Virus record (IMG/VR): IMGVR_UViG_3300044608_001994
Span: 1 to 30,335 of that record
DNA from: a virus
DNA: 30,335 nucleotides
Strand: one strand, 5' to 3'
Shown: positions 905 through 30,335 of the stretch, piece after piece
Numbering within the stretch: the first letter of the stretch is position 1
How the letters are laid out: every line of letters starts with the position of its first letter
Notes under the pieces: generated by a model
Database searches by the model: none
Seen by the model: the letters and a program-made list of their open reading frames with translations, nothing else
What the model was told of the DNA's origin: nothing
Program-made: the position numbers and the translations under genes

Positions 905-1978
905 ATGAAACCAACCTTACACGTTTTGGCCAATCCGCATGGCATTACGGATCTAAAATACAGAATGGATCCGTTCAACATTGCTGTTGCTAAATTCATT
1001 GCCAACATGCTGCCACTTGATTGGCCTATTATTCATTATGGTCATGAACATAGCCAGGTCAATTGCGAACATGTCAGTGTGATTTTTAACAAAGAAGTTT
1101 CTGCTCGCGGAGCTGATGATCTTTTTGTTCAAGATCCACGCACAGCAGCCATGTTCTGCTCAAGAGCTCGAACAGAGTTGAAAAAACGATACAAATCTGG
1201 TGATTTGATTTTGTGTTTTTTTGGACAAGATCACTCAGCAGCAGTCAGAGATGAGCCAGATTGGCTTGTGGTCGAGCCCAGCATTGGTTACAGGCCTGAG
1301 TGTATTTTTGCTCCATATAGAGTTTTTACAAGCCATGCTGTGATGAATTATTTCTATGGCATGCGAAACATGCTGTTGAATCCCAGCTGGTTTGATGCTG
1401 TTATCCCCAATGCTTTTAGTCCAGGCGAGTTTGGGTTTTCAGACATCAAACAAGATTATTTGGTTTATTTGGGCCGTGTCAGCGCAGACAAAGGCATAGA
1501 TTTGGCCATACAAGTTGCCGAGTACACAGGCAAACGATTGGTCATAGCTGGTCCAGGCGATTTGAAAGCACTGAATTATAGCCAAATACCTCAACATGTT
1601 GAAATGTATGGTTATGCGGACATCCTGCGGCGAAAACAAGTGTTGCGCAATGCCTATGCGTTGATTGCGCCCACACATTATCTTGAACCTTTTGGTAACA
1701 TTGTTGTGGAAGCTGCCATGTGTGGCACACCAGCCATTACCACAGATTGGGGCGGATTCAGTGACACAGTGTTGAATGGCCACACTGGTTATCGTTGTAA
1801 AAGTTTTATGGATTTTGTACAAGCAGTGGAAGACATACCCAAAATTAGAAATCAAGACTGTAGAGATTGGGCTATGAAAAATTACAGCGAATCAGTGGTT
1901 CATCAAAAGTTTGATCGTCATTTACAATATATTAGTTCAAAGAATTTTTACCATGGAAAAAATACACAGCCAAGTTAA
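905..1978 (+). CDS. Glycosyltransferase family 4 (GT-B fold)
   Basis: A 357-residue protein with a typical GT4 C-terminal nucleotide-sugar-binding half: YLGRVSADKG at about residues 188-197, RLVIAGPG at 211-218, and the E-x7-E motif EPFGNIVVE with E261 and E269, followed by CGTPAITTDWGG. It is expected to transfer a sugar from an NDP donor onto a growing glycan in the cytoplasm; the acceptor is unknown. It is the first gene of a packed glycan cassette. The start at 905 directly follows a perfect hairpin and has no obvious Shine-Dalgarno sequence. The 3' end overlaps the next gene by 26 bp. GT4 assignment is firm; donor and acceptor cannot be read from sequence. Confidence 0.9.
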   Translation: MKPTLHVLANPHGITDLKYRMDPFNIAVAKFIANMLPLDWPIIHYGHEHSQVNCEHVSVIFNKEVSARGADDLFVQDPRTAAMFCSRARTELKKRYKSGDLILCFFGQDHSAAVRDEPDWLVVEPSIGYRPECIFAPYRVFTSHAVMNYFYGMRNMLLNPSWFDAVIPNAFSPGEFGFSDIKQDYLVYLGRVSADKGIDLAIQVAEYTGKRLVIAGPGDLKALNYSQIPQHVEMYGYADILRRKQVLRNAYALIAPTHYLEPFGNIVVEAAMCGTPAITTDWGGFSDTVLNGHTGYRCKSFMDFVQAVEDIPKIRNQDCRDWAMKNYSESVVHQKFDRHLQYISSKNFYHGKNTQPS

Positions 1979-2363
1979 TTCTCAAGTTCTATGCCACATG
2001 ATCAACAGACTGGACGAAATTCAAGAACGCACTGACGTTGCTCCCAACACTGAATTTCTACAACTGGCCACATTACGCATGCCTCAAGGCAAAACTTTTA
2101 GGCCGCATCAACATATCTGGAAAGCACACTCCACTGAACAGACCATAGCTCAAGAAAGTTGGGTGGTTATCAAAGGCCGAGTGCGCTGTCATTTTTTTGA
2201 CATTGACGGTTCGCTTCTAGCTGAGCGAGAAATTGGACCTGGCGATTGCTCCATGACTTTTCAAGGCGGGCATACCTATACCATACTAGAAGACGATACA
2301 GTGGTTTATGAGTACAAAACTGGTCCTTACACAGGACAGGCCAACGACAAAGTGTTTTTATGA
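1953..2363 (+). CDS. WbuC-like cupin protein
   Basis: A 136-residue cupin. I chose ATG 1953 (MEKIHSQVNS); an in-frame upstream start at 1911 would add 14 residues lying inside the preceding gene. The core resembles the WbuC family found in O-antigen clusters: FRPHQHIWK (H52, H54), ESWVVIKGRVR (E68), FFDIDGSLL, a late GGHTYTIL (H107), and a C-terminal EYKTGPYTGQANDKVFL resembling the WbuC GPY...DK ending. H52, H54, E68 and H107 fit a cupin metal site. WbuC's exact reaction is not established; its consistent location in lipopolysaccharide O-antigen loci supports a sugar-modification role. The TGA stop overlaps the next ATG (ATGA). Confidence 0.75.
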   Translation: MEKIHSQVNSQVLCHMINRLDEIQERTDVAPNTEFLQLATLRMPQGKTFRPHQHIWKAHSTEQTIAQESWVVIKGRVRCHFFDIDGSLLAEREIGPGDCSMTFQGGHTYTILEDDTVVYEYKTGPYTGQANDKVFL

Positions 2364-2896
2364 AGCAAGGTCAAGACGTCTATATCAGTGCCACAGCTGA
2401 AATACGCAGACCAGAATTGTGTGCGATTGGCAACCACGTGGCCATTGACAGTTTTTTCTATTGTACCACTCAGTTAACTGTGGGCGATTATGTTCATATC
2501 AGCCCACATGTGGCTGTGATTGGAGGCCGCACCACTGGCCTTACCATAGAAGATTTTTGCTTTCTCAGTGTTGGCTCGCGTTACATCTGCGGCAGTGAAC
2601 TGTTTGAAGGAGCTGGCCTGATTGGTCCACTGATTCCTGACGAGTACAAAGATGATCAAGATCTAAGACCCATAGTGTTGAAAAGATTCAGCGGTGCGCT
2701 GGCCAACTCTGTGATACTGCCAGGAGTGATCATGGCCGAAGGTTCTGTGCTGGGTGCCAACAGCTTGCTCAAACACAACACTGAGCCATGGACAGTGTAT
2801 GCTGGATCTCCAGCTAGGCCCATAAGGCTGCGCAGCTCAGAGCGTGCCTATGAGTATGCTGCCAAATTAGGATATCTTTATGACTCAAATACATAA
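2360..2896 (+). CDS. Left-handed beta-helix (hexapeptide) acyltransferase, probably sugar O/N-acetyltransferase
   Basis: A 178-residue protein with loosely spaced hexapeptide-repeat turns (ISATAEIRRPELCAIG, VGDYVHISPHVAVIGG, VILPGVIMAEGSVLGANSLL) and the typical family ending TVYAGSPARPIRLR. Enzymes of this type (WbbJ/NeuD/PerB-like) move an acetyl or similar group from acyl-CoA to a sugar or nucleotide sugar. It starts by 4-bp ATGA overlap with the cupin gene and ends 17 bp inside the aminotransferase-like gene, indicating translational coupling in a cassette. The acceptor is unknown; with an aminotransferase and a GDP-sugar dehydratase next door, an amino-deoxysugar is plausible. Confidence 0.85.
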   Translation: MKQGQDVYISATAEIRRPELCAIGNHVAIDSFFYCTTQLTVGDYVHISPHVAVIGGRTTGLTIEDFCFLSVGSRYICGSELFEGAGLIGPLIPDEYKDDQDLRPIVLKRFSGALANSVILPGVIMAEGSVLGANSLLKHNTEPWTVYAGSPARPIRLRSSERAYEYAAKLGYLYDSNT

Positions 2897-3578
2897 ATTC
2901 AACAGTTGGCCCTCAGGCAAATTACCACCAGAATGGCAACGCCCTGAGCTGGAATTGGTCAAACGTGCTGGATACTCGTGGTCTGATCCTAGAGACATTG
3001 TGGATATTTTTGAACACAAGGTGGCCGAGTTTGCTGGCGCCAAATACGGAGTCAGTGTAGACTGTTGTACTCACGGGGTATTTCTCAGTTTGCTGTATCT
3101 CAAAGCACATGGACTGGTAGAAATACCCAAACACACATATCAAAGCATACCCATGTACATCAAACATGCTGGTTGTCAGCCAGTGTTTAGAGATGAGCAA
3201 TGGTCAGGCATGTACCAACTGCGTCCATACCCTGTATGGGACGCAGCCACACGCTGGCGTCGTGGCATGTATCAAGGTGGATTTCATGTTGTCAGCTTTC
3301 AGATCAAAAAACGTGTGCCCATTGGGCGCGGTGGCATGATCTTGACTGATGATTACGATGCTTACAAATGGCTGATTCAGGCCAGATATGACGGCAGAGA
3401 CATGGCAGTGAGCCAATGGGATGATGATGCTGATATCTGTGGGTGGCACATGTACATGACTCCTGAAGATGCTGCCAGAGGTATATTACTAATGGATCAA
3501 GTGCCTGACAATAATCCAGACTGCGGCGGCTGGGAAAATTACTCTGATCTGAGTCAAAAGAAATTGTGGAAAGAATAA
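2880..3578 (+). CDS. Short DegT/DnrJ/EryC1-type aminotransferase homologue
   Basis: A 232-residue protein with the fold-type I PLP enzyme signature of sugar aminotransferases: a DAATR motif at D121 (equivalent of the family EDAAQ aspartate that contacts the pyridine ring) and SFQIKKRVPIGRGG at about 139-152, in which K144 aligns with the Schiff-base lysine of SFxxxKxxxxGxGG. Usual DegT enzymes are about 360-390 residues, so most of the C-terminal small domain is missing, yet the reading frame is clean and the next gene starts immediately after the stop (TAA-ATG). It may be a compact sugar aminotransferase or a non-catalytic derivative. Function is inferred from the motif and from the neighbours gmd and an acyltransferase. 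Confidence 0.75.
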   Translation: MTQIHKFNSWPSGKLPPEWQRPELELVKRAGYSWSDPRDIVDIFEHKVAEFAGAKYGVSVDCCTHGVFLSLLYLKAHGLVEIPKHTYQSIPMYIKHAGCQPVFRDEQWSGMYQLRPYPVWDAATRWRRGMYQGGFHVVSFQIKKRVPIGRGGMILTDDYDAYKWLIQARYDGRDMAVSQWDDDADICGWHMYMTPEDAARGILLMDQVPDNNPDCGGWENYSDLSQKKLWKE

Positions 3579-4547
3579 ATGAGCAAACGAGCATTGATAA
3601 CCGGTATTACCGGTCAAGACGGCAGTTATCTGTCTGAATATTTGTTGGAAATGGGCTACGAAGTTCATGGCATTGTGCGGCGACACAGTGTGCCAGAAAA
3701 TCAAAGCTCTAGGTTACATCATGTCAATGATCAAATAACCAGGCACTACGGAGATTTGACTGATCCATTGAGTTTACACTCAGTGATCAATCGTGTCAAA
3801 CCCACTGAGATTTACAATCTAGCTGCCATGAGTCATGTGAGAATCAGTTTTGACATGCCTGCGTTTGCGCTTCAAACCAACACCATGGGTGTGCTGTACA
3901 TGCTGGACTATTACAAAGATTTATGTCCAGAAGCAAAGTTTTATCAAGCCAGCAGCAGCGAAATGTTTGGCAACAGCATAGATTCTGATCAAACACAACG
4001 ATTGACAACTCCAATGGTGCCTGTGAGTCCCTACGGTATCAGTAAATTGGCAGCATTCAATCTAACCCGACACTACCGAGCTGCCTATAAACTTCATGCC
4101 TGTAATGGCATCTTGTTCAATCATGAAAGCCCCAGACGTGGCACCAACTTTGTCACAAACAAAGTGGTAAAAACTGCTGTGGAAATCAAAAAAGGCCTTG
4201 CCCAACGTCTTGAGCTGGGTAATCTTGACAGTTGTAGAGACTGGGGTCACAGTTATGATTATGTGCGTGCCATACATGCCATCACCAATCATGACACTGC
4301 TCGAGACTGGATTGTGGCCACTGGCGAGACTCGCAGTGTGAGAGATCTGTGCGAGTTAACGTTCAAATCTCTGGGCATGAATTACCTAGACTATGTGGTT
4401 CAAGATTCAAAGTTCATGCGGCCTGAAGAATTGAAGTACCTCAAAGGCGACAGTTCAGACATCAGAACCATACTGGGTTGGCAGCCACGCTACACATTTG
4501 AAACCATGATTGAAGAAATGATTGAACATTGGATGACAGTGCTATGA
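3579..4547 (+). CDS. gmd: GDP-mannose 4,6-dehydratase
   Basis: A 322-residue extended short-chain dehydrogenase. It has the NAD(P)-binding GITGQDG at residues 9-15, EIYNLAAMSHV at about 77-87, the active-site stretch SSSEMFG at 125-131, the catalytic pair Y152-x3-K156 in PYGISK, and the family motif NHESPRRG followed by FVTNKV. It converts GDP-mannose to GDP-4-keto-6-deoxymannose, the branch point to GDP-fucose, GDP-rhamnose, GDP-perosamine and related sugars. Length and motifs match the intact family. No GDP-fucose synthase (fcl) is in the window, so the next enzyme is either upstream, supplied by the host, or replaced by the aminotransferase-like neighbour. The stop overlaps the next start (ATGA at 4544). 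Confidence 0.97.
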   Translation: MSKRALITGITGQDGSYLSEYLLEMGYEVHGIVRRHSVPENQSSRLHHVNDQITRHYGDLTDPLSLHSVINRVKPTEIYNLAAMSHVRISFDMPAFALQTNTMGVLYMLDYYKDLCPEAKFYQASSSEMFGNSIDSDQTQRLTTPMVPVSPYGISKLAAFNLTRHYRAAYKLHACNGILFNHESPRRGTNFVTNKVVKTAVEIKKGLAQRLELGNLDSCRDWGHSYDYVRAIHAITNHDTARDWIVATGETRSVRDLCELTFKSLGMNYLDYVVQDSKFMRPEELKYLKGDSSDIRTILGWQPRYTFETMIEEMIEHWMTVL

Positions 4548-21770: not shown

Positions 21771-22256
21771 ATGACCAAAAAACTTGAGGAATTGTTTGAT
21801 CTGCCGCCTAGCGAACACGACGTACAAATTTCTTTGCCTGAGATTCCGCTCACCCAACAGGCCATTCACAACATTGACGACGCCATTGACAAAATTGATG
21901 CTGCGCTGCCCACAGTGCGAGATCTATCAGCCAGTGACGCAGAGCTAGACGAGCTGGCCAAAAAAGCCGAACAAAGCTTTGACGACCTTATGAATCTGGG
22001 CATGAATGTTGATTCAAGATTTGCTGCTGAAATCTTTGCCACTGCTGGTGCCATGCTGGGCCATGCGCTCACAGCCAAAACAGCCAAGCTCAACAAAAAA
22101 CTCAAGATGATTGATCTACAACTCAAAAAAGCCAGACTGGATCAACAGGCTCCAGAGTCTGATCCCACACCCACTGGCACTGGACATGTGTTGGATCGCA
22201 ACGAAATACTGGACCGCTTGCTGGGTGACAGACGCACAAAAGCCAAAAAAGAATAA
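21771..22256 (+). CDS. 16: Small terminase subunit gp16-like
   Basis: 161 residues (T4 gp16 is 164). The central helical hairpin matches gp16: SFDDLMNLGMNVDSRFAAEI (about 69-88), AGAMLGHALTAKTAKLNKKL and KMIDLQLKKARLDQQ, then a loose Pro-rich link and HVLDRNEILDRLL. gp16 forms rings that regulate the large terminase during packaging. In T4 gene 17 follows directly; here it lies about 7.2 kb downstream. The transcript from the late box at 21759 would be leaderless. Confidence 0.87.
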   Translation: MTKKLEELFDLPPSEHDVQISLPEIPLTQQAIHNIDDAIDKIDAALPTVRDLSASDAELDELAKKAEQSFDDLMNLGMNVDSRFAAEIFATAGAMLGHALTAKTAKLNKKLKMIDLQLKKARLDQQAPESDPTPTGTGHVLDRNEILDRLLGDRRTKAKKE

Positions 22257-22276: not shown

Positions 22277-22885
22277 ATGAAAACATTTCATCAGTATCTT
22301 GCCGAAAGCGAACGCACATACGACTATCGCATCAAGATTCTTGGGGACGCCGCACCTGATTTTGTAAAAAATCTCGAAGACAAACTCAAGCAATTTGACA
22401 TTGTAAAAATATCCAAGCCCAAGACCACGCCAGTGATGAAGTTGCTGAAAGATTTTCCAGGCGAGGAAAATCAAAGTGTGACTTCCATGGAAGTGAGTTT
22501 TAGATATCCAGCCATTGAGCCTCAAATCATGCAGATTGCTCAGTTGCTGGGACACAATCCCAATCATGTGCGATTGTTGACCACTCCTTACGAAAACAGC
22601 CAGGACAAAGAACTGTCTGACATCACTGCGCAAAACAAGGACCTGATCAAAGACACTGACTATCCCAACCCAGATGCTGAACAAGCAGCACTGAAAAAAG
22701 ACTATGGTGTAGAAGCTCACAAACATCAAGTGTTGAACAACGCTTACCGTTCAGATTTCACAGTGGCTGGAGGCAAAACACCACCAGCTCAAACCACCAA
22801 CGATTTGCCACAGGGCACTGCTAGCCCAATCAGCAATATCAAACGTCCAGCTAGACCTGTAACAGGTGCTCAACCTCAAGGATAA
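22277..22885 (+). CDS. Conserved phage protein with T4-like capsid-targeting N-terminus
   Basis: 202 residues. The N-terminus MKTFHQYLAES aligns without gaps to the capsid-targeting sequence of T4 internal head proteins (MKTYQEFIAEA), including an L-A-E at residues 8-10 where the prohead protease gp21 would cut. The body (YRIKILGDAAPDFVKNLEDK, then KISKPKTTPVMKLLKDFPGE, SMEVSFRYPAIEPQI) resembles a family I know from T4-like aquatic phages near the packaging genes, function unknown. The C-terminus is Pro/Gln-rich and disordered. Inference: a protein packaged in or assembled with the head core. First gene behind the late box at 22252. Confidence 0.75.
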   Translation: MKTFHQYLAESERTYDYRIKILGDAAPDFVKNLEDKLKQFDIVKISKPKTTPVMKLLKDFPGEENQSVTSMEVSFRYPAIEPQIMQIAQLLGHNPNHVRLLTTPYENSQDKELSDITAQNKDLIKDTDYPNPDAEQAALKKDYGVEAHKHQVLNNAYRSDFTVAGGKTPPAQTTNDLPQGTASPISNIKRPARPVTGAQPQG

Positions 22886-22889
22886 TGAC

Positions 22890-25286
22890 ATGACATTTTT
22901 TTACGATCTCAACAAACGATTGGCCGATCTAGACCGTCCACGAACACAGACTCTGACAGAGAGCAGCAAGATCAAAAAAGGCGAAGTTGACGAAGGACCA
23001 GAAGTGTTCAAACTCAAAGCCGATGCTGCTCGCCAAGCTGGCAAAAAAGAATTTCAAGGACCAGATGGCAAAACTTACCCTGTCAAAGAAGGCAATGACG
23101 GCAACTTGGCCAACAATGCCAAACCCTATGACAAAGTCACCCGCGGTGATGTCATAGCTGGGCGCTTGGGCAAAGATGAAATGGGTGGCAAAGCCAAAAA
23201 AATAAAAGAGCAAGGTGTGGCGGAAGGCCACAAGGATGACTGGGATGCCATGCTGGCTGATGTGGAAAAACGACGCAGTCAGCCCAAGAAAGGCGAAGTT
23301 ACTCATGGTCACAAGCACGACATCACACAAGGAACTACGGATCCAAAATACTCAGGTATCACTGTAACTCGGCGTAAAGATGCTCGAGGTATCTCAGTGG
23401 GAGCTGACGATGACGAACAGCCCACAGGCGAAAAGCGCAGAGTTGGTGCCCCAGAGAAAAAAAACAAAAAGCCAGAACGTGTCACAGCCAAGGCCTACAA
23501 ACACAAACATGGACGCATGGAAGAAGGCATGGACGACGACATGGCCGCCACAGGGTACGAAGCAGGCGAGCGTGGCGAATATGACCGTGAAGGTGACATG
23601 GCCAAAGAACAGCTTCATACCATTGAGCAAGCAGCACAAGAACTCAAAAGCATTCTCAGCGACGAAGAAAACTTGCCAGAATGGGTACAGAGCAAAATCA
23701 CCAAGGCCATGGACTATGTAGACACAGCCCGCGACTACATGTTGGCACAACACGACGATCAAATGAACGAACGTGAACTCACTGGTTCAGAGCGCCAGGA
23801 AAAAGAACGTGTGTTTAAAAAACACATGAAGCCACAGATGGCAAGTTTAAAAAAGCGCTACGGCAAAGATGAAGGCGAAGGTGTGGCACACGCCGTGGCT
23901 ACCAACATAGCCAAAGGCGTAAAGATGGGCAAAAAGAAAGAAGAATCAGTAGAAGAAACCACTACGTCTGGTTCAATAGCCGCCAGCACAGCTGAACCCA
24001 AAGGAAAAAAATCTATGTCATTTGGCAAAGGTATCTATGACAGTGTGAATCGCGAAGTTGAAAACCTCATAGCTGAGTCTATGAGCATCAACGCATCCAT
24101 GAACATGGATCATCATGGTGGTCCAACAAAATCACTCACAGTTACTGCCACCGACGAAGATGCTGAAAAATTGGCAGCCCTGTTGATGATGGCTGGCATT
24201 GGCCCCCAAGACAGCGGCTGCCCCAGCTGCGGTGCGGCCAGCTGCGGCTGCGATCAACAAATGGACGAAGCCTACGGAGACACCACTGCCACAGAAAACC
24301 AGCCCGACTGGCCCACTGCTCAAGAAGGCAGCGATGATGCGCTACAGTATTCGGGTGGATTGAACAAACCCAAAGTCACTGGCCAAACCACTGTGCCTGT
24401 AACAGGTGTACAGCCTGCGCAGAGTCCTCTGATGTACGAAGACAATGCTCTGGCTCGAATGATGGAAATGGCTGGCATTCCAAAATCTGAACTGGAACCA
24501 TATCGTCACACCATGAAAGAACAAGACATTGAAGAAGGCAGCGCAGACTCAGTGGTTAAAAAAGAACCAACAGGTTTTTCAGCCACTGCTCCAGCTGGTA
24601 AACGACTCAGTGTTTCAATGAGTGGCAAGCCCTTAAAACCGTCTGATGTCAAAGTTGTGAACAAAGAAAAAGACATGGACGAAAATCTCATTGTTACGCC
24701 AGCACCAAAATCAGGATCAACCACAACCGGTCAACCAGCCAAGCCTGCTCCTGCTCCTAGACCAGCACCTGCTGGCGGGCAAACCATGGGCACTATCAAA
24801 GGTGGTGTATGGACAGCTGATCCGCCAAAGAAAGGCGAAAAGGGCGTGCCAATGCCTACGCCAATCAGCGAACCAGTGAACGAAGCTAACCCTCCTGAAT
24901 TCAGCATGGGTGCTGGTAAACCCATGCCTAGAACCAGAACATACGAACCAGAGCCTGAGATGAGCATGGGCGCCACAGGCAAAGCGGACCGTAGTGCTGT
25001 GCCCATGACTGTACCCCCTGGTGTAGCTGGCAAGGCTTATGACGCAGATCAAACAGCTTCATTACGTAGAATATTCAAAGGTGCGCAAGATACACCTAAC
25101 TATGTGGGCACTCAACCCGAATATCAAATGGGCGCCACAGGCAATCCGCAACGTCCAATGCCTCCGTTGAAAAAATCACTGGACCTACACACTGATCCCA
25201 AAGTCAAAGCACTACCTACTGTGAGAGAAAATTCAATGGAAAACAATCTCATGCGTGAACTGGCCTATTTCAAGAGCAAAAAATGA
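22890..25286 (+). CDS. Large modular, charged phage protein, probable head core/cargo
   Basis: 798 residues from ATG 22890, with AAGGA at 22878-22882; an in-frame GTG at 22866 is unlikely. Very hydrophilic (Lys, Glu, Asp, Gly). The N-terminus has LTES (L22-T-E24), a possible gp21-type cleavage site. Visible modules: a helical unit at about 230-284 (AAQELKSILSDEENLPEWVQ, DYVDTARDYM), a basic unit at about 297-350 (KKRYGKDEGEGVAHAVAT), SLTVTATDEDAEKLAALLMM at 415-434, then a cysteine knuckle CPSCGAASCGC near 444-454. A Pro-rich C-terminal third has repeated S/Q-MGA motifs. The modules look familiar from hypothetical aquatic phage proteins. No enzyme motif. Scaffold or internal protein is inferred. 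Confidence 0.7.
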   Translation: MTFFYDLNKRLADLDRPRTQTLTESSKIKKGEVDEGPEVFKLKADAARQAGKKEFQGPDGKTYPVKEGNDGNLANNAKPYDKVTRGDVIAGRLGKDEMGGKAKKIKEQGVAEGHKDDWDAMLADVEKRRSQPKKGEVTHGHKHDITQGTTDPKYSGITVTRRKDARGISVGADDDEQPTGEKRRVGAPEKKNKKPERVTAKAYKHKHGRMEEGMDDDMAATGYEAGERGEYDREGDMAKEQLHTIEQAAQELKSILSDEENLPEWVQSKITKAMDYVDTARDYMLAQHDDQMNERELTGSERQEKERVFKKHMKPQMASLKKRYGKDEGEGVAHAVATNIAKGVKMGKKKEESVEETTTSGSIAASTAEPKGKKSMSFGKGIYDSVNREVENLIAESMSINASMNMDHHGGPTKSLTVTATDEDAEKLAALLMMAGIGPQDSGCPSCGAASCGCDQQMDEAYGDTTATENQPDWPTAQEGSDDALQYSGGLNKPKVTGQTTVPVTGVQPAQSPLMYEDNALARMMEMAGIPKSELEPYRHTMKEQDIEEGSADSVVKKEPTGFSATAPAGKRLSVSMSGKPLKPSDVKVVNKEKDMDENLIVTPAPKSGSTTTGQPAKPAPAPRPAPAGGQTMGTIKGGVWTADPPKKGEKGVPMPTPISEPVNEANPPEFSMGAGKPMPRTRTYEPEPEMSMGATGKADRSAVPMTVPPGVAGKAYDADQTASLRRIFKGAQDTPNYVGTQPEYQMGATGNPQRPMPPLKKSLDLHTDPKVKALPTVRENSMENNLMRELAYFKSKK

Positions 25287-26044
25287 AAACTCTAAAAGAT
25301 TACCTTGTTGAAAGTGAGCAGTGGCATGAATCTCCTGCTGCTGGTGACAACATTGGCATTGAATTAGATGATGGAACATTGATTGAAACTTGGATCATGG
25401 AAGCCACAGAAGATTCAGTGCTGGTTGATGCCACACCTGAAATTGTCACTGTGTTAGAGCAGTGGGCCACACTGTCTGATGTGTTGTTGGAAGACACTGA
25501 TGTTGATGAGCATGGTGGTGGCATTGGCCCCAAGCAACATTGGCAAAGCATGATGGAAGAAGGCCGCGGCATTGAATTCAATGGCCGTATGGTGGATCCG
25601 CGCAGCATCGAGCTGGACGGAGTACACACTTGGGATCATCCTGATTATACTGATGCTTATGTAAGTTCGGCTAGATACACAGATGGCACTGAACTCACTG
25701 ATCAGGAATTGGATGCTTTTACCCAGGAAAACGGCGACCTGGTCAATCAATTGGCACACGATAAATTGTACGAAGCCGAATATCAAGGTCGCAATGTGCC
25801 CCTGGGCAAACCCATGCGCGGTGATGTGAAAAAATTCAAAGTCTATGTCCGAGATCCCAAGTCAGGCAATGTTAAAAAAGTAAATTTTGGACACGGCGGT
25901 ACTTCTGCTCGACGAGCTGGGCAAAAGACCATGAAAATTAAAAAAAGCGATCCTGCTCGCAGACGCAGTTTCCGAGCTCGTCACAATTGCGACAATCCAG
26001 GACCCAGAACCAAAGCACGTTATTGGTCGTGTAGAAAGTGGTAA
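25283..26044 (+). CDS. Conserved phage protein with capsid-targeting-like N-terminus and basic C-terminal domain
   Basis: 253 residues; ATGA overlap with the previous stop. The N-terminus MKTLKDYLVESE again follows T4 MKTYQEFIAEA with L8-V-E10. Three parts follow: an acidic segment (GIELDDGTLIETWIMEATED), a middle segment (DPRSIELDGVHTWDHPDY, then DAYVSSARYTDGTELTD), and a very basic C-terminal domain (KKFKVYVRDPKSGNVKKVNF, RRRSFRARHNCDNPGPRTKA, ending RYWSCRKW). The last domain is conserved in many T4-like aquatic phages; its function is unknown to me. The charge suggests DNA contact inside the head, which is inference. Confidence 0.75.
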   Translation: MKTLKDYLVESEQWHESPAAGDNIGIELDDGTLIETWIMEATEDSVLVDATPEIVTVLEQWATLSDVLLEDTDVDEHGGGIGPKQHWQSMMEEGRGIEFNGRMVDPRSIELDGVHTWDHPDYTDAYVSSARYTDGTELTDQELDAFTQENGDLVNQLAHDKLYEAEYQGRNVPLGKPMRGDVKKFKVYVRDPKSGNVKKVNFGHGGTSARRAGQKTMKIKKSDPARRRSFRARHNCDNPGPRTKARYWSCRKW

Positions 26045-26045
26045 C

Positions 26046-26222
26046 ATGGAATACAAACCCTATCAACAAGTCATGGCAGACCTGGCCAAACAAACACCAC
26101 AGCCTGTGCCCGTGGCCACTGTGAAAAATCAGCCTGTTGAAATACCTGGCGTCATGGGCCAGACCATGGCCATGCTCAAACCGGTAAATACTCAAGAGCT
26201 ATACAAAGGACGAGATCGATGA
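26046..26222 (+). CDS. Small unknown protein (58 residues)
   Basis: ATG 26046 follows the previous stop by 1 nt and the TGA overlaps the next ATG (ATGA at 26219), so it fills an otherwise empty 174-bp gap with perfect coupling on both sides. Begins MEYKPYQQVMADLAKQ; Pro/Gln/Val-rich middle (PQPVPVATVKNQPVEIPG), ends ELYKGRDR. No recognisable domain. Coding potential is supported by spacing only. Confidence 0.65.
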   Translation: MEYKPYQQVMADLAKQTPQPVPVATVKNQPVEIPGVMGQTMAMLKPVNTQELYKGRDR

Positions 26223-26506
26223 GTCAAGCAAATGTGTATTCTACAGTGGCCAATGCTTATTGGTACACGGACCGCTGCGAGATTACAACTGGCAGCACTG
26301 GTGTTACATACAATGTGTATGCCACCGCGCTGGGGTCAGCTACGCCAGTGGGCAACATCTACAGTGCTGCTCCTCAAGTACCCCCAAATCAACGCAAAGA
26401 AATCTACGTGGGAGCTGGAAATCATTTGGACATCATTGGGGCAAACTTCACAGCTCAAGAACTGGGAACCAAGAGTTCAGCGCAGTTTGGCGTCATAGCA
26501 GGCTAA
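26219..26506 (+). CDS. Small beta-rich conserved phage protein, possible virion decoration
   Basis: 95 residues: NVYSTVANAYWYTD, TGSTGVTYNVYATALG, an RKEIYVGAGNHLDIIGANFT stretch and SAQFGVIAG. Small, Gly/Thr/Ala-rich and predicted beta. Proteins of this look recur in aquatic phage genomes beside virion genes; function unknown. Coupled by ATGA to the 58-residue gene. A capsid or fibre surface protein is a guess from composition and context. Confidence 0.7.
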   Translation: MSQANVYSTVANAYWYTDRCEITTGSTGVTYNVYATALGSATPVGNIYSAAPQVPPNQRKEIYVGAGNHLDIIGANFTAQELGTKSSAQFGVIAG

Positions 26507-26510
26507 CGCA

Positions 26511-26882
26511 ATGCGAGCTCGCGAATTTGTTATAGAGGCCAAAGTGGGACGCCTTAGCAAAACCAAACAGTTTGCCACAGTGGGTCTACACAAATTTCGC
26601 GACGAATCATTTGCTGACAGGTTCTATGAACTTGAACGGGTGATGAGAGCTGCTGCTGCCACAGACGGAACTTTTGTTCCCAACATTGACCAAGAAAGCT
26701 GGGCAGGACGACACAACATTGCTGTGCCTTACACTGCGGCTGAGGCCAATATGTTGAAAAAAGCTTATCAAGCCACCGGATCCTGGCACAGAGATCTCAA
26801 TCACAATGATCTTAGATCGCAGGAAATTCCCAGCACCAACAAAATCAGTCCAGTCAAAGCTTTTGGCGGATACCCACGATGA
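26511..26882 (+). CDS. MRAREF-type small phage protein, copy A (probable head cargo)
   Basis: 123 residues. Starts MRAREFVIEAK, comparable to the T4 capsid-targeting MKTYQEFIAEA (shared EF-hydrophobic-x-E core with cleavage expected after E9), and ends NKISPVKAFGGYPR. The next gene has the same two ends but a different middle. The middle holds DESFADRFYELERVMRAAAA and WAGRHNIAVPYTAAEANMLK. No catalytic motif seen. Overlaps the next gene by ATGA at 26879. Confidence 0.75.
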   Translation: MRAREFVIEAKVGRLSKTKQFATVGLHKFRDESFADRFYELERVMRAAAATDGTFVPNIDQESWAGRHNIAVPYTAAEANMLKKAYQATGSWHRDLNHNDLRSQEIPSTNKISPVKAFGGYPR

Positions 26883-27262
26883 GAGCACGAGAATTTGTGG
26901 TTGAAAATCGTGCTCATTTGCCCGATGAAGCCAGCTACCCCATGCATGACACGTTCATGCTGCCAGGGCTACGCAACAATGATGCTTATCGTGCTTACAG
27001 ATTGAGCGTGGCCATGGCTCGAGCTCGAGTTGACCTAGCTGGTCAAGATCAAGATTTGCCGCCCTGGGCCTCAGAAAGTGCTCTGGGCATGTACGCTGTG
27101 GTTGCTGGTTTTAACGACACAGTGGATCCTGTGATTGATCGAGCCTTGGCCATGACTGATACGCCTGGCGGCAAACGCCCTGTCAGTACCAATCCCAGTC
27201 GCGATCCGCCCAGTGTCAGCAAAATTAGTCCCATAAAACCATTCAAAGGATACCCACGGTAA
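26879..27262 (+). CDS. MRAREF-type small phage protein, copy B (probable head cargo)
   Basis: 127 residues. Starts MRAREFVVENR and ends SKISPIKPFKGYPR, the same bookends as copy A. The middle (YRLSVAMARARVDLAGQDQD, SALGMYAVVAGFNDTVDPVI, KRPVSTNPSRDPPS) does not resemble that of copy A. The pattern of constant ends and variable centre suggests a common targeting or processing scheme. Stop TAA shares a base with the next ATG (TAATG). Function unknown. Confidence 0.75.
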   Translation: MRAREFVVENRAHLPDEASYPMHDTFMLPGLRNNDAYRAYRLSVAMARARVDLAGQDQDLPPWASESALGMYAVVAGFNDTVDPVIDRALAMTDTPGGKRPVSTNPSRDPPSVSKISPIKPFKGYPR

Positions 27263-28953
27263 TGGCCATTCCACAACCAACAGAAGTAGCACCGTGGTAT
27301 CTTCGCAATATCACACAGGCTCTTGAACTCAACGAAGCCACAGGCCAAGTATTTGTTCGTACCGATGCTCAATTGACCATTGGCAACGTTGGCAATGTCA
27401 ATGTAACAGAAGTTGAAGTTCAAGCCTTAGGAAACATTGACATCTCGGGCAACACCATGCCAGTATCGGGCAATGTCACAGTGTTCCAAGGAACTATACC
27501 TTGGGTTGTTACAGGCAATACCAACGTGGCCATCACATCAGGTAACGTGGGCATTACTGGCAACCTAGCAGGAATTACAGGCAATGTCACAGTTAATCCT
27601 ATAACAGGCAATGTAGGCGTAGTTGGCAATGTCAACGTGGCCATCACATCAGGTAACGTGGGTCTCACTGGCAACCTAGCAGGAATTACAGGCAATGTCA
27701 CAGTGGTCGATGGTGGCGGAAGTATCACTGTGGACGGCAACGTAAATGCCACAATTACTGGTGGCAATATTGCTACAACTATAACAGGCACGAATATAGA
27801 TGCGTTTGGTCGACTGCGTGTTAGCAATCCCTTTACCCTGTTTGACAGCCAAAATCGTTACATAGACGGTGATCAGTTTTCAAACATCACAGCCACAGGC
27901 GGCAATGTGGTGTATGTGGCCAATGAAAGTTCATTCAATCTAAATGTATCCGCAACCAGTGGAAGCAGTGTGATCAGACAAAGCAAAACAGTGCAGGCCT
28001 ATCAGCCTGGCAAGAGTCTGCTAATCATGAACACCTTTGCCATGGCCACACTCAAGGCCAACTGTCGCCAGCGTGTGGGCTACTTTACAGCTGACAACGG
28101 CATCTACTTTGAAGCAGCAGGCACCACGTTGAATCTTGTGATTCGTAGTAGTGTCACTGGCGGCATAGTTGAAGAAAGAATTCCACAGGCTTCCTGGAAC
28201 GGAGATCCACTCAACGGTGCTGGAGCATCTGGAATCACACTTGATCCTACATTGACACAGATTTTTTGGTGTGATGTTGAGTGGTTGGGCGTGGGCAATG
28301 TACGAACAGGATTTGTGATCAACGGCCAATTCATTGTGTGCCATACATTCCAACATGCCAATCAGCCCGGCAACACCACAGTGTACATGACCACTGCCAC
28401 ACTAAATCCACGCTATGAAATAACCAACACCGGTGCCACCTCGGGTGCCAGCACCATGAAACAAATTTGTAGCACTGTGATAAGTGAAGGCGGATTCGCA
28501 CCCTCCACCAAACTTGGCTATGTGACCAACAACACTACGGCAACACGAATAAGTTCAGCCAACACTGTCACAGCCTTATGCAGTATCCGACTGAATCCAG
28601 CCTATCCTGACGCAGTGGTCTTGCCGTCTCAATTGGATATTTTATCGCTGGATGTAAGATATGGACAGTTCCAACTGATTGAAAATGCTACCTTCACTGC
28701 CAGTTTTAGTAATGTAGCAGGATCAGTTGTTCAAACCGCTATACACAGCAATGTTATCACCGACGGCACTGTGGTCTATGCTGGTCTGTCCAGTAGTCGC
28801 GATGAAGTGGAGATCAGCGAAGACATCAAGCGTCGTCTGCAACTATGGAGAACAGCGGCAGGAACACCCAGCACTTTGACTCTAGCTGTAGCCTACACCA
28901 GCGCCAATGCTGACCTGCTTTGGAAACTGGGCTGGGAAGAACTAACTAACTAA
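27262..28953 (+). CDS. Large virion/fibre-like protein with GNV repeats
   Basis: 563 residues. Residues ~35-190 are repeats of G-N-V/L-x-V/I-T (ITSGNVGITGNLAGITGNV), likely forming a regular beta-solenoid shaft. From about 191 comes a conserved head, DAFGRLRVSNPFTLFDSQNR with YIDGDQF after it, a signature I know from aquatic phage proteins, followed by a long beta-rich region to IKRRLQLWRTAAGTPS and LLWKLGWEELTN. No enzyme motif. The architecture suggests an exposed head or tail fibre. It is coupled to the small cargo genes upstream. Exact role unknown. Confidence 0.75.
   Translation: MAIPQPTEVAPWYLRNITQALELNEATGQVFVRTDAQLTIGNVGNVNVTEVEVQALGNIDISGNTMPVSGNVTVFQGTIPWVVTGNTNVAITSGNVGITGNLAGITGNVTVNPITGNVGVVGNVNVAITSGNVGLTGNLAGITGNVTVVDGGGSITVDGNVNATITGGNIATTITGTNIDAFGRLRVSNPFTLFDSQNRYIDGDQFSNITATGGNVVYVANESSFNLNVSATSGSSVIRQSKTVQAYQPGKSLLIMNTFAMATLKANCRQRVGYFTADNGIYFEAAGTTLNLVIRSSVTGGIVEERIPQASWNGDPLNGAGASGITLDPTLTQIFWCDVEWLGVGNVRTGFVINGQFIVCHTFQHANQPGNTTVYMTTATLNPRYEITNTGATSGASTMKQICSTVISEGGFAPSTKLGYVTNNTTATRISSANTVTALCSIRLNPAYPDAVVLPSQLDILSLDVRYGQFQLIENATFTASFSNVAGSVVQTAIHSNVITDGTVVYAGLSSSRDEVEISEDIKRRLQLWRTAAGTPSTLTLAVAYTSANADLLWKLGWEELTN
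27522..27704 (+). repeat. 72-bp direct repeat within the GNV-repeat gene
   Basis: Copies at 27522-27593 and 27633-27704 are identical except for about three bases (GGGCATTACT versus GGGTCTCACT). The offset of 111 bp is 37 codons, so recombination between copies keeps the frame. Confidence 0.9.
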
Positions 28954-29414: not shown

Positions 29415-30335
29415 ATGTCCAAACCTCTGGAAAGTGTATTAGTAAAAGCTCCCTATCGCAAGCAGCAGTATTCTGAAGAAGAACTCACGCAGTTTTTGAA
29501 CTGTGCTGATCCTGACACTGGTCCATACTACTTCATGGACAATTTTTTCTATATTCAGCATCCCACACAAGGCAAGATGCTGTATCATCCTTATGACTAT
29601 CAAAAACGCCTGATTGAAACCTACCATAACAATCGGTTTTCAATCTCCATGATGCCCAGACAAACAGGCAAGTCAACATCAGCTGCGGGCTACATCTTAT
29701 GGTACGCTATGTTTGTGCCAGACTCAACCATTCTTATAGCAGCACACAAGTATTCAGGCGCCCAGGAAATCATGCAACGCATACGATTTGCCTACGAATT
29801 GTGCCCAGACCATATCAGAGCTGGCGTGACCAGTTACAACAAAGGCTCAATAGATTTTGAAAACGGCAGTCGTATTGTGTCAGCCACTACCACCGAAACC
29901 ACTGGTCGAGGCATGAGTATTTCATTGCTGTATGCTGACGAGTTTGCGTTTGTGCGACCTACCATTGCCACTGAATTTTGGACTTCAATTTCGCCCACCT
30001 TGGCCACTGGTGGTAAAGCCATTATCACATCCACTCCCAACTCTGACGAAGATCAGTTTGCGCTGATTTGGAAGCTGGCCAACAAGTGTGTGGACGAATA
30101 CGGCAGTCCCACAGAACTGGGACAAAACGGCTTCCGAGCATATCGCAGCTACTGGCAAGAACATCCAGATCGTGACGAAGCCTGGGGCGAAAGCATGCGT
30201 GCGCAGCTAGGCGAAGATCGATTTCGTCGAGAAATTGGCTGCGAGTTCATTATCAATGATGAAACGCTGATTGCGCCTACCAAACTGATAGATTTACAAG
30301 GACGAGCACCACAGTATAAAACAGGGCAGGTACGC
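29415..30335 (+). CDS. 17: Large terminase subunit gp17-like, 3'-truncated by the window edge
   Basis: 307 residues visible, open to the last base. Begins MSKPLESVLVKAPYRK. The ATPase domain is clear: Walker A SMMPRQTGKST, then ILIAAHKYSGAQEIMQRI, SYNKGSIDFENGSRIVSAT, Walker B SLLYADEFAFV with the catalytic Glu, and the coupling motif ITSTPNS. Order and spacing match T4 gp17 (RQLGKTT, IYIDECAF). The C-terminal nuclease domain is beyond the window. gp17 is the packaging motor that fills heads and cuts concatemers. No clear promoter or Shine-Dalgarno is visible before ATG 29415. Confidence 0.97.
   Translation, partial: MSKPLESVLVKAPYRKQQYSEEELTQFLNCADPDTGPYYFMDNFFYIQHPTQGKMLYHPYDYQKRLIETYHNNRFSISMMPRQTGKSTSAAGYILWYAMFVPDSTILIAAHKYSGAQEIMQRIRFAYELCPDHIRAGVTSYNKGSIDFENGSRIVSATTTETTGRGMSISLLYADEFAFVRPTIATEFWTSISPTLATGGKAIITSTPNSDEDQFALIWKLANKCVDEYGSPTELGQNGFRAYRSYWQEHPDRDEAWGESMRAQLGEDRFRREIGCEFIINDETLIAPTKLIDLQGRAPQYKTGQVR

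Follow-up and report, generated by a model that had tools for sequence, protein, structure and literature searches.

The window (the whole stretch of DNA that was analysed, a virus record of 30,335 bases) is a genome fragment with structural genes from a jumbo T4-like myovirus, a virus of bacteria. PHROG and profile matches identify genes for the tail sheath (phrog_10581), the tube, and head closure and adaptor proteins. Among cultured phages, the PA5oct-like Pseudomonas phages and Agrobacterium phage Atu_ph07 are the nearest tail-sheath relatives, and from 9.7 to 30.3 kb the genes follow each other nearly gene for gene as in contig G001 (352,754 bases). At 905–4547, a glycosyltransferase, a hexapeptide transferase, a DegT aminotransferase and a GDP-mannose dehydratase stand in a row and form a sugar-nucleotide cassette. 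Between a terminase-small-like gene and the terminase large gene lies a cluster of genes with N-terminal tags:

21771..22256, plus strand: terminase-small-like protein, left border of the cluster (weak assignment; phrog_16202, E 4e-16; phrog_445, E 0.027)
22277..22306, plus strand: N-terminal tag MKTFHQYLAE, predicted to be cut after Glu10 (LxE kept in relatives found with the cargo only)
22277..22885, plus strand: tagged protein of 202 aa, mature part predicted to be ferredoxin-like with ribosomal-S6-like topology (AlphaFold2, weak Foldseek matches)
22890..22961, plus strand: N-terminal segment of the 798-aa protein, ending LTE|S (LxE kept in relatives)
22890..25286, plus strand: 798-aa protein (ATG at 22890), candidate head-core or internal protein (weak phrog_32745; G001 orthologue 35% identical)
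25283..25312, plus strand: N-terminal tag MKTLKDYLVE (11 family members, selected by tag, with MK.[LF].DY[LIF]xE-type starts)
25283..26044, plus strand: tagged protein of 253 aa with a C-terminal CDNPGPRTKARYWSC domain (phrog_7595, E 2e-12)
26219..26506, plus strand: untagged gene of 95 aa within the cluster (G001 orthologue 39% identical, syntenic)
26511..26537, plus strand: N-terminal tag MRAREFVIE (paralogue of 26879)
26511..26882, plus strand: tagged protein of 123 aa (G001 orthologue 51% identical)
26879..26905, plus strand: N-terminal tag MRAREFVVE (cargo-only search)
26879..27262, plus strand: tagged protein of 127 aa without database match (249 relatives in viral contigs)
27262..28953, plus strand: virion structural protein adjoining the cluster (phrog_1645, E 7e-102)
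29415..30335, plus strand: T4-type terminase large subunit, right border, cut by the window end (PF03237, E 3e-17; 79% identical to the G001 orthologue)

The first-pass annotation had likened five N-termini in this cluster to the capsid-targeting sequences (CTS) of T4 internal proteins, and all five read as it claimed: MKTFHQYLAE|S (22277), MKTLKDYLVE|S (25283), MRAREFVIE|A (26511), MRAREFVVE|N (26879) and, in the 798-aa protein, LTE|S at residues 22–24. As in a CTS, the predicted mature protein is preceded by a short stretch at the N-terminus that ends in [IL]xE, with V at the I/L position in 26511 and 26879 and I, L or V in relatives. We observed that the tag pattern M[KR]...[YF][LVI]xE matches four of the 36 window genes (22277, 25283, 26511 and 26879). 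Composition shuffles of the same genes gave a mean of 0.07 matches and a maximum of 3, so that none of 20,000 reached four, and only one of 138 internal methionines matches (Fisher p = 0.007 compared to gene starts). The same comparison in two large relatives gave 11/422 gene starts against 2/1407 internal methionines (p = 4e-6) and 12/311 against 1/959 (p = 4e-7), where a few of the matches look false. As a positive control, the pattern retrieves ipII and ipIII of T4 (MKTYQEFIAE), plus 61.1. The latter gene (NC_000866 18966–19130, L208) encodes a protein of 54 aa whose function is not known and which starts with the CTS-like MKTFKEFIKE|D.

The four short tags are thus real, but two of them stand on paralogues, 26511 and 26879 (31% identity, E 3e-10), which do not count as two independent cases. 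In all, there are therefore three tagged cargo families, with the 798-aa protein in addition. The inclusion of the latter in the tag series stands only in part: it has the LTE|S site but no M[KR] tag, and instead its own longer conserved start (MTFFYDLNK.L). In its family, LxE lies at about residues 18–31 in 9 of 10 readable relatives, while the site itself varies; in the exception, L284, the start is not readable. The protein contains twelve sites of the type hydrophobic-x-E|small residue, and a Pfam search gave no match to it.

For the 22277 protein, searching with a query that lacked the tag recovered 40 loci with 22 distinct N-termini. In all 22, LxE followed by S or N occurs near residues 8–12, at cargo identities down to 26%, and in an alignment of 29 sequences L8 and E10 are among only eight invariant columns. 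The AlphaFold2 model has a pLDDT of about 77–86 across residues 11–100, and Foldseek returned only weak, generic ferredoxin-like/S6 matches. As the matches are generic and the model is of moderate confidence, we claim no function. The PA5oct orthologue, EST35_0202, is named a structural protein and carries the record note ESI-MS/MS, which points to a virion protein by mass spectrometry. Its start, MKSFRDYYDA|S, is tag-like and lacks the cleavage Glu, so that it supports packaging but not cleavage; Phosso (MKNFYEYLSS) likewise lacks the Glu. The Atu_ph07 orthologue starts with MKTLQDYLTES, upstream of the annotated start: in MF403008 84393–85148 (L207), the start annotated at 85061 misses the tag, which is encoded from 85148.

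With the 26879 cargo as the only query, the tag was found at 78 of 78 loci, where M1, R2, A3, E5, F6 and E9 are invariant and positions 7, 8 and 10 are variable. With the C-terminal domain of 25283 as the query, the result is mixed: the top-ranked jumbo relatives are tagged (MKTLKDYLTE, MKSLKDYIVE) and other phages mostly have other N-termini; a count of 39/65 tagged loci came from a loose pattern and was set aside as evidence. This CDNPGP..YWSC domain (25745–26041 in the window), whose function is not known, is widespread in many phage types behind differing N-termini. We found no Pfam or PHROG match to the IPI–III/Alt families for 22277, 26511 and 26879, and 25283 matches only phrog_7595, also of no known function. 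A fold search with the AlphaFold2 model of 26879 (mean pLDDT 70) gave no match. Among cultured phages, the DNA stretch 26511–27262 had no match, the 26511 and 26879 proteins had no credible match, and MRAREF tags were absent from the phages tested.

If the tags are cut as in T4, a protease of the gp21 type is expected alongside them. The window contig, being a fragment, is without protease and capsid genes. We found the gp21-type protease (PF03420) in 13 of the 13 tagged contigs of at least 180 kb, among them G001, whose gene order the window shares; some tagged contigs of 133–177 kb show no PF03420, possibly because they are incomplete. In the contigs examined, the protease gene adjoins gp22-like and capsid genes. 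The proteases of the relatives start with MALYLRE|N and variants, and the PA5oct protease keeps an LxE start (QLYE). T4 gp21 itself starts with MNEPQLLIE|T, in agreement with its reported loss of nine residues (PMC9958956). An [IL]xE| site also precedes the major capsid domain of the relatives (KYLKE|NASAG), the counterpart in T4 gp23 being SFLTE|A. By analogy with T4, these phages would cut at the LxE sites of both protease and capsid protein.

In T4, gp21 strips short N-terminal peptides from the internal proteins and Alt, foreign proteins can be packaged via the CTS (PMC9958956; PMC5694885 for both), and the chain of docking, cutting, packaging and injection is known (PMC3012670; PMC5694885). 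We conclude, with a probability of roughly 85%, that the N-terminal 9–10 residues (more in the 798-aa protein) are T4-type capsid-targeting sequences that would dock the protein, be cut by a gp21-type protease and leave the cargo in the head. Following the T4 model, the tag would dock the protein into the prohead core during head assembly, the serine protease would cut after the Glu of [ILV]xE, and the mature protein would remain with the DNA inside the head. In relatives, the tagged unrelated enzymes would then probably enter the next host with the genome. We infer these steps from T4, the early ones with support from the sequences analysed here and packaging with support from the one orthologue noted as a virion protein.

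Alternatively, the tag might stay uncut and serve another purpose as a docking peptide or membrane peptide, for instance in tail or core attachment, with its Glu kept for binding. For the 26879 family, the complete conservation of E5 and of F6 goes beyond the needs of a protease site, and the PA5oct protein is in the virion though it has no Glu. However, a Glu at position 9 or 10 with I, L or V two residues before it matches the protease start and the capsid site, and the residue after the Glu is free to vary. Furthermore, a CTS has to be both bound and cut, which explains the extra conservation. We thus regard an uncut peptide as improbable.

The first-pass annotation had also proposed searching for the tag across relatives, and this search revealed the same label on dozens of different cargos in related uncultured phages. 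We ran the degenerate pattern MRA[RS]EFxxE over viral contigs and compared the cargo without its first 12 residues. Among the matches listed, at least 241 distinct tagged proteins fall into 47 cargo groups, about 44 of which have the M[RK]xx[EDQ][FLIY] form; at least one of the 47 is a false positive (L169, which reads like thymidylate synthase). The pattern matched 33 of 35 contigs, the reversed pattern none of the 35. The same peptide occurs on unrelated cargos of one phage, as is expected of a CTS, and tagged genes stand in rows, e.g. five within 8 kb in G033. Pfam matches on the tagged cargo include GNAT, GH19, M23+LysM, SLT+LysM, gamma-glutamylcyclotransferase and nucleotidyltransferase; a match to ART-PolyVal is below the curated cut-off. 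That the likeness of the tags is coincidence or the simple descent of duplicated genes is very improbable. The paralogy of 26511 and 26879 fits such descent, but the shuffle test, the 47 groups formed by cargo without the tag and the cargo-only searches that recover the tag all speak against it, and paralogy was ruled out as the whole explanation by the other tags on unrelated cargo. The original reading is supported in part: for T4-type capsid-targeting and prohead-protease tags on different cargo there is good support in cargo-only conservation, cargo diversity, the co-occurrence with the protease and the shared LxE motif, whereas cleavage and, above all, entry into the host are predictions from T4.

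Some tagged proteins (L421:4496–5410, L058:7733, L170:1543) open with YHYTG, YHATP or YHGTC and resemble ADP-ribosyltransferase-like domains, without a Pfam match. In L427 (Alishewanella phage Slicko01, 1056–4609), adjacent proteins share a lineage-specific start like MKI..LYESLLEE; three of them have an ART-like H-[SA]-T opening and one has the LPDDWD cargo that is MRA-tagged in other phages, the same cargo thus occurring with another tag. A kinase-like reading of the LPxDWD cargo found no support in a PDB sequence search or in Pfam. Matches of the pattern in CBB fall within genes of the opposite strand and are hence due to chance. Untagged ferritin/Dps-like genes occur within rows of tagged genes (L423:2080–2520, with PF00210, and L425:5101–5541). 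We found no papers describing these tags in the open-access literature, where MRAREF gives unrelated matches only.

The clearer cases of effector-like cargo (ART-like, GNAT, murein hydrolases) come from relatives and not from the window. The window's own tagged genes, which have no known function, belong to the head region and are conserved and syntenic, so that some of their products may be parts of the core and not injected effectors. They might form part of the head core or scaffold, in the manner of T4 gp67/gp68, and would then be cut in maturation and mostly leave the head. This is consistent with their position beside terminase and structural genes, where they are not accessory, and with the many potential LxE/VxE sites of the 798-aa protein, which resemble those of a protein shredded by gp21. 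However, the 22277 orthologue of PA5oct stays in the virion, each small protein has its conserved site right at the N-terminus, and in relatives the MRA tag is carried by enzymes (M23, GNAT, ART-like) that would make no sense as scaffold. We therefore consider a core or scaffold role unlikely, though it is a serious alternative for the window proteins.

The capsid-targeting reading places these proteins closest to T4 IPI–III and Alt, with which they share a 9–10-residue N-terminal tag of the shape MK.[YF]..[FY][IL].E|, a gp21-family protease (in relatives), the context of head genes and varied cargo behind one tag. They differ from T4 in the second tag type, MRAxEF[IVL]xE, and in a larger and different range of putatively delivered cargo (murein hydrolases, GNAT, nucleotidyltransferase), in part with a Tat signal that follows the tag. 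The ejection (inner-body) proteins of phiKZ and SPN3US are comparable: they too are packed in large number by a giant phage and processed by a prohead protease. Several of their propeptides exceed 100 residues and are far longer than the T4 CTS, with only one SPN3US propeptide of CTS length (PMC5694885), and we rejected the phiKZ type as the closest class. The polyvalent injected proteins of phages (Iyer 2017, cited in PMC7824862) also carry ART and GNAT domains, which are believed to enter the host along with the DNA; those are large multidomain proteins, whereas here the proteins are mostly smaller and separate, and each has a tag of its own. It has long been asked what large uncultured phages inject, and answering this usually takes virion proteomics. 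With a tag that is short and almost invariant, their candidate head cargo can be read from the sequence, and the tag predicts a sizeable arsenal of ADP-ribosyltransferase-like proteins, acetyltransferases, nucleotidyltransferases and murein hydrolases.

Lastly, we looked at tags followed by a twin-arginine pattern, which had matches in 23 contigs. At least 17 proteins have a Tat export signal directly behind the tag (18 tag+RRx[FL] proteins were read), with GH19, M48, GNAT, SLT+LysM or cargo of no known kind. The Pfam TAT_signal model matched all 10 proteins scanned plus L072, where only two matches are above the curated cut-off. If the tag is cut off, the Tat signal becomes the new N-terminus. 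We tentatively propose, as a possible but somewhat doubtful reading, a two-stage address in relatives: the capsid tag would be cut in the head, and once the enzyme (GH19/SLT murein hydrolase, M48 metalloprotease or GNAT) is injected, the Tat machinery of the new host itself would export it to the periplasm there. Such proteins may instead be exported uncut in the producing cell. If the two-stage address holds, some head cargo would be destined for the periplasm of the next host. Tag+Tat genes, which encode a murein hydrolase, a metalloprotease or a GNAT, include L072:413–1294, L174:2992–3609, L175:3861–4493, L179:1257–1928, two genes in L188, and others. In many of the tag+Tat proteins a Met stands right behind the tag (E-D-M-S-R-R), as if the tag had been added to an existing Tat protein.
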